Source of the DNA: a virus
Length of the DNA: 25,739 nucleotides
Strand: one strand, 5' to 3'
Virus record (IMG/VR): IMGVR_UViG_3300009164_000321
Location: 1-25,739 of that record
Shown: piece after piece, positions 1,122 to 10,723 of the stretch
Numbering within the stretch: the first letter of the stretch is position 1
How the letters are laid out: every line of letters begins with the position of its first letter
Position numbers and translations under genes: made by a program
The notes under the pieces: generated by a model
What the model saw: the letters and a program-made list of their open reading frames with translations, nothing else
What the model was told of the DNA's origin: nothing
Database searches by the model: none

Positions 1122-1286
1122 ATGGCAAAAATTAAATATTGGGACAAACTAAAGCAGAATATTGAAAGAGGTAAGCAAGGATTAAATACTGGAATTCCTT
1201 TCCACGGCTTTACTACGTTAAGTAATCACATCAAGAATATACAGCAAGGGAGATATGATTTGATATTTGCAGGTACTTCTGTCGGT
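1122..1286 (+). CDS. dnaB: DnaB-type replicative helicase, exon 1
   Basis: This 55-codon first exon begins MAKIKYWDKLKQ and ends AGTSVG, the start of a RecA/DnaB Walker A box. Without splicing, reading would give one more codon (AAG) and then TAA. Joined to the exon at 2321 it gives GTSVGKTAF, a complete P-loop with catalytic Lys56. The 5' splice site follows a U, as group I introns require. The spliced protein is about 358 aa and lacks the N-terminal primase-interaction domain of bacterial DnaB, as in many phage helicases. The ATG follows an A-rich leader. Confidence 0.88.
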
Positions 1287-1303
1287 AAGTAAACAATTTT
1301 TCA

Positions 1304-1311
1304 TATATTTG
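1304..1311 (+). promoter_or_regulatory. Bacteroidota -7 box before homing endonuclease 1
   Basis: TATATTTG is an exact match to TAnnTTTG, the -7 element of Bacteroidota primary sigma factor promoters. It ends 3 nt before the endonuclease ATG at 1315, so a transcript would be nearly leaderless. A -33 TTTG is not clear (only a weak TTCTG about 22 nt upstream). The same arrangement occurs before the GIY-YIG gene of intron 3. Confidence 0.4.
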
Positions 1312-1314
1312 TCT

Positions 1315-2130
1315 ATGGCAAATCAATATACAAAATCTGAAATTAATTTGGAAGCAGTCCAAAAATACACAAATAAACAAGGAACTTTAAATTCGATTGC
1401 TTTAGAATACTCTGTTAGTAGAAAAATATTAACAAGATGGGTAAAACAATCAGGAAATACAGTTCTGCCTAAAAAACAGCTTGAATATGATGAAACTTTC
1501 TTTCAAAAGATAGATTCTGAAGAAAAAGCATATTGGCTAGGGTTTATTTATGCAGACGGCTGCATATCTGATTCAAATCGTTTTGAACTTTCTTTAGCTT
1601 TAAAAGATTATTCTCATTTAATAAAATTGGGAAAGCTTTTAAATAAAGAAATTACAAAAGATAATTTTAGGTGTAGATTAAGTATTAATAATAAAACTTT
1701 TGGAGAAAGCTTAAAAAATTATGGAGTTATTCCTAGAAAAAGTTTGATCTTAAAATTTCCTAAAACAATTTTACCTGAATTTATTTCTTCTTTTATAAGA
1801 GGATATTTTGACGGAGATGGATGTATTTATTATGGAAAAAAGGATTTGACTAGTAGTAGTCAAGCAGTTTCTTTAATAGGCACTGGGGATATGCTAACAA
1901 CAATTTTAAAATATACAAAAATTGTAGTTAAATTATCTCATGATGCTAGGCATCATAAAGATTGTTATTTTATAAGAATAGGAAAAACAAAAGATATTAT
2001 TAAATTCTTAGATTATTTGTATAAAGATGCAGAAGTTTATTTAGACAGAAAATATGAAAAATATTGCCGTCTAAGGCAGAAATGCTTTAGATTATTAGAG
2101 GGTAAAAACGGTGAAAGGTGTGATTCCTAA
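1315..2130 (+). CDS. LAGLIDADG-type homing endonuclease (intron 1)
   Basis: The 271-aa intron-encoded protein has two LAGLIDADG-like helices, AYWLGFIYADGCIS and FIRGYFDGDGCIYY, each with the acidic metal-binding residue, so it can act as a monomer. An N-terminal helix-turn-helix-like region (SIALEYSVSRKILTRWV) precedes them. It would cut intronless copies of the helicase gene and drive intron homing. The start was set at MANQYTKSEI because the longer frame begins inside the helicase exon. The 3' end of the gene overlaps the start of the ribozyme core. Codon use is more A/T-rich than in neighbouring genes. Confidence 0.88.
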   Translation: MANQYTKSEINLEAVQKYTNKQGTLNSIALEYSVSRKILTRWVKQSGNTVLPKKQLEYDETFFQKIDSEEKAYWLGFIYADGCISDSNRFELSLALKDYSHLIKLGKLLNKEITKDNFRCRLSINNKTFGESLKNYGVIPRKSLILKFPKTILPEFISSFIRGYFDGDGCIYYGKKDLTSSSQAVSLIGTGDMLTTILKYTKIVVKLSHDARHHKDCYFIRIGKTKDIIKFLDYLYKDAEVYLDRKYEKYCRLRQKCFRLLEGKNGERCDS

Positions 2131-2320
2131 TACCGTGCTAAGACAATAGATTACGAAAGGCTATTGGACAGTGTAACGCATAGGAGATGAATAAATATAA
2201 TTCTCCCACGAGTATCCTCCACCTAAACAAGTAATGTTGTAGGTGAAAATGTATGCTGAGCTATGACGAATAAGAAGTCATAGAACTAAGGGATAAAAAG
2301 CCTTTAGGGTAACATAACTG

Positions 2321-3232
2321 AAAACCGCGTTCGTTAATAGTACCTATGTTTATGGAGCCATAGATTTTATACAATCAAATCCTGGTTATATTCACGATAT
2401 TGAGATTATTTATTACTCATTGGAGATTCCTCCTGAGCATCAAATTGCTAAACATATTGCAGGTCTAATTTGGAAAGAGTATGGTATTCTTACTTCTATG
2501 GATGAGATTTTATCAAAGGGCAATTTACAAATTCGTCCTGAAGTAGAAAGATTGATTCCTGTGTATGAGGAAAGGATGCAAGAAATTCAGAATAAATTTC
2601 TTCATTACCGTAGTAGCTTGAATCCTGACTTTCTGTATAAAGATTTAATCACTTATGCAGAGAAGCGAGGAACAGTAGTAAGGAATGAGGATAATTTAAT
2701 TGTAGAATATATTCCTAATAATCCAGGGTTGATTACTCTTGTGGTCATAGACCATATAGGCTTAATCAATTACAATGGTTATAAGGATTTAAAGGAGGCA
2801 ATTGATCGAGCTTCTCGAACTCTTGTCTTTTTTCGCAATATGTTCAATTTTAGTCCTGTGGTAATATCACAAATTAATCGTGGTAGTGAGCAAATGGATC
2901 GGAGAGAGAATGATAGTTGGATGCCTATGTTAAGTGATATCAAAAATACAGGTAATGTTGCAGAGGATTGTAATACTGCAATAGGTTTAGCTTCGCCATT
3001 TTATTATGGTGTGGAAAAATGTATGGGTTTTGATATCACAAAATATAAGAATCGCTATCGATTAGCTAAAATCTGTAAAAATCGTGACGGTGATGTAAAT
3101 CTTCTAGTAAACTTTCTATTTATCGGCGAGTACGGGGGTTATTATCAATTACCAAAAGCTGATGAGGTGATAGGAAAGCCTGAAGAATTACGCAAGATCG
3201 ATGATTACTATAAAACGCAAATAAACAAATAG
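2321..3232 (+). CDS. dnaB: DnaB-type replicative helicase, exon 2
   Basis: The second exon runs AAA ACC GCG TTC, completing Walker A as GKTAF, and encodes residues 56-358. Walker B is LVVIDHIGLI (Asp near 199). The DnaB motif VVISQINRG (about 236-243) contacts DNA and senses the neighbouring subunit's nucleotide, and LSDIKNTGNVAEDC (about 259-272) matches the DnaB segment LSDLR..G.IEQDAD. The protein should form a hexameric 5'-3' helicase at the replication fork. A TTG at 2420 could be misread as a start, but it is an internal leucine. The gene ends in TAG 2 nt before the next ATG. Confidence 0.88.
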   Translation, partial: KTAFVNSTYVYGAIDFIQSNPGYIHDIEIIYYSLEIPPEHQIAKHIAGLIWKEYGILTSMDEILSKGNLQIRPEVERLIPVYEERMQEIQNKFLHYRSSLNPDFLYKDLITYAEKRGTVVRNEDNLIVEYIPNNPGLITLVVIDHIGLINYNGYKDLKEAIDRASRTLVFFRNMFNFSPVVISQINRGSEQMDRRENDSWMPMLSDIKNTGNVAEDCNTAIGLASPFYYGVEKCMGFDITKYKNRYRLAKICKNRDGDVNLLVNFLFIGEYGGYYQLPKADEVIGKPEELRKIDDYYKTQINK

Positions 3233-7182: not shown

Positions 7183-8283
7183 TAGTGTATAGGCTCCTTA
7201 TACAGTAATGTATATGTAAAATGTCTTAAATTGACGGGAAACTCCTTAGAGCTTAATCTACTAACTTATAATGGCGACATATATAAGGGCTGAAGTAATT
7301 ACTCAGGTATAGTAAAAAAGATTAAGATTGGAAAATCCGCAGCCAAATTTCTTGGTATAACAAATAATATTTGGTATATTGCAATAAAAATAATTGCATA
7401 TTATGTTAAATATAGAAAAGGAAATAGTTAATAAATATACTATAGATAAAATATCTGCTCCAAAAATTGCTAAAGAATATAGTAAAAATGTAAAAACTAT
7501 ATGGAAAATATTAAAAGCAAATAATGTGAAAACAAGAACAATTTCTGAAGCAAGTATGAAATATACTTGTAATGATAACTTTTTTAATGTGATAGATACA
7601 GAAGAAAAAGCTTATTGGTTAGGAGTGTTATACGCTGATGGAAATATTTCTAAAAAAGCTAGCAAATCAGGACAAATATTTTTAACATCTGTAGATTTAA
7701 AATGGGTAGAAGACTTTATGAAAGCTATATCATCAAGTAATAAGCCTAGATCAGAAACGCATAAAAAATTTAATAAAATTATATGGAAAGCACAAATAAC
7801 TTCGGCTCAGATGTATAATGATTTAAATTATTTAGGATGCACCCCAGTAAAAACTCATACTATAAGATTACCTTTAATTAATGATGAATTATTGCACCAT
7901 TTTATTAGGGGTTATTTTGATGGAGATGGTACAGTAGGTATTTACCAAAACTTAAAAAGTGATAATTGGAAAATATTGAAATCTGGATTTTGTTCTGGTT
8001 CTAAAAATTTTATAGAAGATTTATTACAAGTACTACCTGTAAAAAACAAAACAATTAGATATTCTAGTGTATATATTACCCAGTTTTCTTTAAATGACAG
8101 CATTGCATTATATAATTATATGTATAAAGATGCTACTATATATTTAAAAAGAAAAAAAGATAAATTTACTGAATATTTAGACTCTTACATACCAAGAAAG
8201 AGGTTCAACGACTATAATAGACCATCCTAATAAGGATGAAGGGATAGTCTGATCTTACATGAAAATGTAAGTTAACAAAAATG
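7183..8283 (+). ncRNA. Group I intron 2 (inside HExxH motif)
   Basis: This is a 1101-nt self-splicing intron. Its P1 pairs exon GAGCU with GGCUC (7192-7196). Core segments before the endonuclease are ttgacgggaaactccttagagc (P4/P5 type) and aatccgcagcc (P6 type). Core segments after it are gttcaacgacta and ggatagtctga (the P7 strands), then a P9 hairpin cttacat/atgtaag. The intron ends ttaacaaaaatG. An 11-bp perfect stem, tttcttggtat (7348-7358) with ataccaagaaa (8189-8199), closes the loop holding the endonuclease gene. All group I splice rules (U at exon end, G at intron end, frame kept) are met. Confidence 0.92.
7403..8230 (+). CDS. LAGLIDADG-type homing endonuclease (intron 2)
   Basis: The 275-aa protein has two LAGLIDADG-like motifs, AYWLGVLYADGNIS and FIRGYFDGDGTVG, and an N-terminal helix-turn-helix-like region (SAPKIAKEYSKNVKTIWKIL). 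It resembles the intron 1 enzyme in layout (EEKAYWLG.. and ..FIRGYFDGDG). It should cleave intronless alleles at the HExxH-coding site. The ATG at 7403 was chosen over an in-frame TTG at 7394. A short inverted repeat (tgcaat/attgca) lies just before the start. The last 14 codons or so encode the P6-closing strand and the first P7 strand of the ribozyme, so protein and RNA structure share sequence. Confidence 0.88.
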   Translation: MLNIEKEIVNKYTIDKISAPKIAKEYSKNVKTIWKILKANNVKTRTISEASMKYTCNDNFFNVIDTEEKAYWLGVLYADGNISKKASKSGQIFLTSVDLKWVEDFMKAISSSNKPRSETHKKFNKIIWKAQITSAQMYNDLNYLGCTPVKTHTIRLPLINDELLHHFIRGYFDGDGTVGIYQNLKSDNWKILKSGFCSGSKNFIEDLLQVLPVKNKTIRYSSVYITQFSLNDSIALYNYMYKDATIYLKRKKDKFTEYLDSYIPRKRFNDYNRPS

Positions 8284-9675: not shown

Positions 9676-9719
9676 TAATAAAATATGCAGTCTAGTAGTG
9701 TTAGTGTGAATAATTTAAT

Positions 9720-9727
9720 TATCTTTG
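9720..9727 (+). promoter_or_regulatory. Bacteroidota -7 box before GIY-YIG gene
   Basis: TATCTTTG matches TAnnTTTG exactly and ends 4 nt before the endonuclease ATG (9732). Transcription would start at or very near the ATG, giving a leaderless messenger. No clear TTTG lies at -33. Confidence 0.4.
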
Positions 9728-9731
9728 TGAT

Positions 9732-10481
9732 ATGGAAAAATTAAACATGCAAACACTTAAGATAGCATTAAAGAGTATAGGAATCTATAAAATTAAAATT
9801 AATGATAAAGAGTACATTGGTAGCTCTTGTAATATTGGTCATAGATTAAAACATCATTTGTGGTCTCTTGAAAATTTAAAGCATCATAATAGAACAATGC
9901 AAAATTTATACAATAAGTATGGTAAAGATGAAATTTACTTTAATATTGTAGAAGAGTGTAATGATGATGTATTAATAGAAAGAGAAGCATATTACATTAG
10001 TACACTTAAACCTTATATAAATCATATATTGGATCCTCAAACTTTAGTTAGAGATGATGTATATAAACAAAGAATAAGTGATGCTAAGAAAAAAGCTTAT
10101 GCAAATGGTTTAAAACCTCACAATCTTAAAGCAGTGTACAAATATTCACTTGATAATGGAGAATATTTAGAAAGTTTTGAATCTCTCACAGCTGCTGCTA
10201 AATCTATTAATGCTAAAAGTATTAATAGTATTAAAGCAGTATGTAATAGTAAACAAACTTCTGCAGGAGGATATGTATGGTCTTATAACAAAGTTGATCT
10301 AGTTTTTACTAGGGAAAAGAAATATAAGCTAGAACCAGTATTACAATATACTACTAATAATACTTTTATCAAAAAATGGGAGTCTATTACTGCAGCAAAA
10401 AAAGAATTAGGTATTGCTAATATTAATAGAGCAATATCTAAAAATTTAACTGCTGGTGGGTATAGATGGAAAAAAGCATAA
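9732..10481 (+). CDS. GIY-YIG homing endonuclease with NUMOD1-like repeats (intron 3)
   Basis: The 249-aa protein starts with a GIY-YIG nuclease domain: GIYKIKINDKEYIGSS (17-32) carries both signature parts, with Arg38 of the helix and the catalytic Glu85 in EREAYYIS. After a linker come two NUMOD1-type DNA-binding repeats, about 138-186 (VYKYSLDNGEYLESFESL..SAGGYVW) and 205-249 (VLQYTTNNTFIKKWESI..TAGGYRW). It should cut intronless copies of the MoxR-like gene. It sits in the P1 loop of intron 3, with a -7-like box directly before the ATG. Confidence 0.92.
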   Translation: MEKLNMQTLKIALKSIGIYKIKINDKEYIGSSCNIGHRLKHHLWSLENLKHHNRTMQNLYNKYGKDEIYFNIVEECNDDVLIEREAYYISTLKPYINHILDPQTLVRDDVYKQRISDAKKKAYANGLKPHNLKAVYKYSLDNGEYLESFESLTAAAKSINAKSINSIKAVCNSKQTSAGGYVWSYNKVDLVFTREKKYKLEPVLQYTTNNTFIKKWESITAAKKELGIANINRAISKNLTAGGYRWKKA

Positions 10482-10723
10482 ACGGGTGGTCCGCAATAAA
10501 TCATGTGAATTCAGGGAACCTCCAGAGATGGACAATCCTGAGCCAAGCCTTATAGGGATATAAGGAAGGTGCAACGACTAGTGTATGGAGTCTAGAACAG
10601 ACAGTAAAACACCAAGAGCGCATGACACATAGAAATATGTGATGATATAGTCTGAACTGTGTGTATAATCTAATAATAAAGACACAGAACTATGGGATAA
10701 AGAGCCTATAGGATAACAAAATG

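Follow-up and report, generated by a model that had tools for sequence, protein, structure and literature searches.

Phage group I introns tend toward conserved protein-coding genes (PMC3984707), and P-loops are classic intein sites, as at DnaB site b in mycobacteria (PMC6195587) and at the TerL1-a site, which falls between Lys and Thr (PMC5050341). Some crAss-like phages are rich in introns and inteins (PMC7886860). It is already known that introns and inteins can occupy conserved motifs, including P-loops, and that crAss-like phages carry introns. Here, we analyzed a viral DNA stretch of 25,739 nucleotides (positions 1 to 25,739 of IMG/VR virus record IMGVR_UViG_3300009164_000321; hereafter, the window) from a putative crAss-like phage, and found that the P-loop of its replicative helicase gene is interrupted by an insert that, judging from comparative sequence evidence, is almost certainly a functional self-splicing and homing group I intron. 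Elements of this kind are known; this intron adds a well-supported new example, at a site that follows a known rule. A literature search returned no earlier report of a phage helicase with a group I intron in its P-loop, which does not prove that none has been published.

The DnaB site-b inteins (M. smegmatis DnaBi1 and M. leprae; PMC6195587) are likewise mobile P-loop elements that render the ATPase splicing-dependent; they are removed by protein splicing with a serine at the junction, whereas the present element is presumably removed by RNA splicing and lies at a Gly/Lys junction. The T4 td intron with I-TevI (PMC3073962) is likewise a phage group I intron in which the endonuclease open reading frame (ORF) overlaps the ribozyme core. 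The td ORF encodes a GIY-YIG protein and ends in P6a–P7, whereas the ORF described here encodes a LAGLIDADG protein, lies in the P1 loop and overlaps the guide, P2 and P3–P5. Group I introns of the Delta and Zeta crAss-like phages also carry endonuclease ORFs and reside in core replication genes; unlike the present case, the helicase P-loop is not mentioned in the excerpted text of PMC7886860.

An insert at an exact site in the helicase P-loop

All features of this locus lie on the plus strand. Helicase exon 1 (1122–1286) ends in AGTSVG, and translation from 1122 to 1295 reads MAKIKYWDK...DLIFAGTSVGK*; exon 2 (2321–3232) begins KTAFVNSTYVYG..., that is, KTAFVNSTY.... Joining position 1286 to 2321 yields a 358-amino-acid protein that matches DnaB_C (PF03796, E 8.7e-16) and phrog_19, a DnaB-like replicative helicase, with the Walker A motif present in the DnaB_C domain of the joined exons. 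The intron falls between the Gly and Lys of this P-loop. The initial annotation had placed the exon ends at these positions, and both translation and an intronless relative confirmed them to the base. Its statement that joining restores a canonical Walker A motif holds for AGTSVGKT, which fits [AG]x4GK[ST] with A in first place, but not for the GTSVGKT it named, which is one residue short. The U1286 that ends the 5′ exon and the G2320 that ends the intron were read in the sequence as annotated. Because the first stop codon is a TAA at 1290–1292, unspliced translation halts one codon into the intron, also as predicted.

Scanning viral contigs with exon 2 identified 61 helicase loci, among which the intron is patchily distributed. 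The frame continues across the P-loop, without an intron, in 55 of these; the match stops short of the junction in five, and one locus, L054, carries an insert at the junction. Among the intronless loci is L003, which is collinear with the window; over 1077 bases of helicase exon the two sequences differ at 22 positions, and two amino acids are changed. At the insertion point L003 reads, uninterrupted, ...GGTACTTCTGTCGGT followed directly by AAAACAGCATTTGTT (in the longer read, GGTACTTCTGTCGGT followed by AAAACAGCATTT); the empty site is therefore exact, as it is in 54 further loci. The comparison with intronless homologs that had been proposed as a check on a clean 1286/2321 junction was thus passed. 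L054 has a 1054-nt insert at the identical codon boundary between intact exons; its exon 2 protein is 63% identical to that of the window, its LAGLIDADG protein is ~50% identical and its ribozyme part is closely similar. Since the intron lies within the code for the ATP-binding loop, the helicase would be functional only after excision of the intron from the RNA. This requirement, which the initial annotation had put forward, is supported by the near-identical intronless relative, the same-site intron and the covariation of the ribozyme.

A covarying group I ribozyme core

The insert comprises 1034 nt (1287–2320), is missing from L003 at the exact point and has a covarying structure. An exact 19-base core motif common to the window intron and L054 was present in 27 viral contigs. 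We aligned 20 intron cores, including those of the window and L054, wrote the structure on the bases of the window and counted pairs on the alignment. Across the 20 cores, 93.0% of pair cells were paired, compared with 74.5% after shuffling and 31–45% when the structure was slid, and 39 of 63 pairs showed changes on both sides. None of 500 shuffles reached the observed value on any measure. Although the shuffle test ignores the relatedness of the sequences, the slide control and the many double-change pairs leave little doubt.

Helices P2–P9.1 were supported across the 20 introns, and the conserved P3–P8 core with P7 is present. P3 (2098–2103 with 2214–2219) encloses P4 (2108–2112/2132–2136), P5 (2116–2118/2126–2128), P6 (2137–2139/2170–2172) and P6a (2144–2149/2161–2166). 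These are followed by P7 (2178–2182/2252–2256), P7.1 (2183–2187/2202–2206), P8 (2220–2224/2241–2245), P9 (2261–2267/2277–2283) and P9.1 (2286–2292/2301–2307), after which comes the terminal G2320. On the alignment, covariation was seen in P3, P6, P6a, P7.1, P8, P9 and P9.1. P7 is invariant in all 20 sequences, P4 shows one double change and in P5 only one side varies; conservation and complementarity, not covariation, therefore support P7 and most of P4 and P5. The P2 hairpin (2071–2090), in the least certain part of the alignment, was paired in 68% of cells across the family, and in L054 all seven of its pairs are kept through changes on both sides. An alternative P3, CCGUG with CACG, was dropped as it is broken in L054, in which GAGGGU with AUCCUC is kept through double changes. 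We take the P7.1 between P7 and P3 to suggest a subgroup IA-like intron.

The internal guide (2064–2069) contains GCCG (2066–2069), which pairs with CGGU (1283–1286), the last four bases of exon 1, to form P1; the U-G pair at the splice site is U1286 with G2066. U2064–U2065 could either extend P1 by pairing with A1287–A1288 or form a two-pair P10 with the AA at the start of exon 2. In introns of the same ribozyme family in DNA polymerase B (PolB) genes, the guide has the same layout, with the junction CGGU/UG (the slash marks the splice site) and the guide region CAGCCG; the extension pairs have thus changed in concert between the two groups of introns. The pairing of the 5′ exon U with a guide G and the terminal intron G are kept in relatives at other sites. 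P1 itself, read by eye, is kept with other exons in L070 (GUGCU with GGCAC), L071 (ACAGU with GCUGU) and L079 (GUGAU with GUCAC).

Several observations weigh against a self-splicing group I intron. P1 is short, with four pairs and two extension pairs; a P10 longer than two pairs was looked for at the window intron and not found; and L054 has lost the P1 pair at exon position −4. The Rfam covariance-model search proposed as a check (RF00028) gave no match to this intron: at the gathering score and at E up to 10, positions 1100–2500 yielded only chance snoRNA-like and similar matches. RF00028 does detect two further introns of the window, described below, at 77.7 and 25.6 bits. Because the higher-scoring of these does match, we regard the miss as a detection limit of that model and not as a defining feature. 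The helix covariation thus supports the group I identity given by the initial annotation, and the insert is, on this comparative evidence, a group I intron despite the Rfam result.

A LAGLIDADG endonuclease gene overlaps the core

The P1 loop contains an ORF of 271 amino acids (1315–2130) predicted to encode a LAGLIDADG homing endonuclease (PF14528, E 6.8e-8; phrog_4645 endonuclease, E 3e-51). Both LAGLIDADG-type motifs, LGFIYADG and RGYFDGDG, lie in one chain and are conserved in L054. Used as a single query sequence, the endonuclease retrieved no relatives, and a two-sequence alignment as query identified 31 loci. The 3′ end of the ORF doubles as the guide, P2 and the 5′ arms of P3, P4 and P5. 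Such overlap between ORF and ribozyme core has been named core creep (PMC3073962), and the overlap seen here is an instance of it. GERCDS at the C-terminus of the LAGLIDADG protein and GEGCDS in the unrelated GIY-YIG proteins of the PolB introns are the same ribozyme bases in the same frame.

A proposed mobile intron and its alternatives

We propose the following course for splicing, endonuclease activity and homing. In the transcript, the guide GCCG would pair with exon CGGU to form P1, and the P3–P8 core with P7 would bind guanosine and cleave after U1286. Attack by the released exon end after G2320 would then link GGU to AAA and so restore AGTSVGKT. The LAGLIDADG endonuclease made from the P1 loop would cleave this conserved sequence in helicase genes that lack the intron, and the cut would drive copying of the intron into them. 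We favor a mobile intron because of the exact empty sites, the same-site L054 intron with a related endonuclease, the LAGLIDADG match, the ribozyme covariation, the co-changing P1 extension pairs and the clustered exon differences described below.

Were the insert dead, an endonuclease gene that landed in the helicase and left it broken, the unspliced protein stopping at GTSVGK* would be its expected product. Such an origin is very improbable, given that both exons are intact with just two amino-acid changes relative to L003, that the ribozyme has a complete core with covariation across 20 introns, and that the same-site relative L054 likewise has intact exons. It is also quite unlikely that the intron is kept as a regulator whose conditional splicing sets the timing of active helicase. 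The insertion does make ATPase activity fully splicing-dependent, and conditional splicing of the mycobacterial P-loop DnaB intein has been reported (PMC6195587), but 55 of the 61 loci manage without the intron, and ordinary homing explains its presence.

Inteins favor P-loops (PMC5050341), and TAG or TGA is recoded in some crAss-like phages (PMC7886860); the insert might accordingly be an intein or be read through under an alternative code. This is scarcely credible here: the reading frame first ends at a TAA, the endonuclease ORF and the two exons do not share a single open frame, no match to an intein domain was obtained, and a ribozyme structure is present. An RNA-spliced mobile intron thus remains our preferred explanation.

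A shared guide target and a mosaic ribozyme

The PolB introns of this ribozyme family (L064, L068, L073, L074, L081, L085 and L086) share with the helicase intron the ribozyme core, the guide GCCG and the exon target CGGU/AAR encoding Gly-Lys, but are inserted after the NSVYG motif of PolB. CGGU/AAR occurs at both gene targets wherever both exon ends were seen. The assignment to PolB comes from tblastn, which matched annotated DNA polymerase B genes in crAss-like phages and others; a Pfam search of the PolB exon gave no match. Most of the PolB introns carry a GIY-YIG endonuclease, in contrast to the LAGLIDADG protein of the helicase intron. No ORF lies in the P1 loop of L086, as only 112 nt separate the PolB 5′ splice-site motif from the core motif. 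This ORF-less intron (L086, 4951) stands beside GIY-YIG-bearing relatives at the same place, possibly a before-and-after pair for endonuclease invasion or loss.

Compared with L054 and L086, all 27 informative sites at 2138–2209 of the window are of the PolB-intron type, and all 27 at 2215–2281 are of the L054 type, so that a PolB-type block lies in an otherwise helicase-type core; none of 300 permutations gave a block pattern as extreme. Because the informative sites fall in blocks, the window ribozyme appears to be a recombinant of the helicase and PolB types, unless an ancestor of L054 recombined elsewhere. Tentatively, one ribozyme may have entered both PolB and the helicase P-loop through GCCG reading CGGU/AAR, followed by an endonuclease swap and block recombination. 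This possible history would amount to guide-directed spread between unrelated essential genes, with the endonuclease (GIY-YIG versus LAGLIDADG) replaced afterwards.

Other members of the family vary in architecture. A relative in L088 (3194–3538, minus strand) sits at a distance from the P-loop in the helicase-like gene of a different phage and has ~90 extra nt of tRNA-like look in the P7.1 region, in which ARAGORN called no tRNA. In L067 (4947–5515), another ORF, possibly GIY-YIG, seems to start within the P9 region and to interrupt it. L070, L071, L072, L077, L079 and L089 have short P1 loops without an ORF, at three or more sites in genes that, by look, are putatively capsid-like.

Other introns of the window and the identity of the phage

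The window encodes a crAss-type giant RNA polymerase (27% identity over 94% of a 1130-amino-acid protein to PhiCrAssBcn RNA polymerases), by which we classify the phage as crAss-like (Crassvirales). Intron 2 (7183–8283; RF00028 25.6 bits, below gathering; LAGLIDADG ORF) splits the zinc-protease motif HEL/LHIAFGH of a DUF2201-type metallopeptidase gene, and its exon GAGCU pairs with GGCUC at 7192–7196. Intron 3 (9676–10723; RF00028 77.7 bits), whose P1 loop contains a GIY-YIG/NUMOD1 ORF, comes after LILDDFTRAD, the Walker B region of a MoxR-like ATPase, and its exon GCGGAU pairs with GUCCGC at 10489–10494. All three introns of the window follow an exon U and end in G, and L003 also lacks introns 2 and 3. 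In the 12 nt downstream of each of the three junctions, the exons of the window and L003 differ at 3, 4 and 3 positions, respectively. Clustering within 12 nt on both sides, a distance chosen post hoc, gave p ~0.004 against random placement and was lost with wider windows. The pattern fits co-conversion during homing, a process described in PMC3984707.

Implications

The element would be a precisely bounded, RNA-spliced mobile element in a replicative helicase P-loop, adjoining the intein sites of other P-loop ATPases, and it supports the rule that the least changeable sequence of a gene attracts introns and inteins alike. RF00028 misses a phage intron family that a single exact motif finds in 27 contigs; intron counts based on that model would therefore be too low. 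Of greater interest than the insertion site are the guide target common to both genes and the mosaic ribozyme, which together make spread between genes testable.
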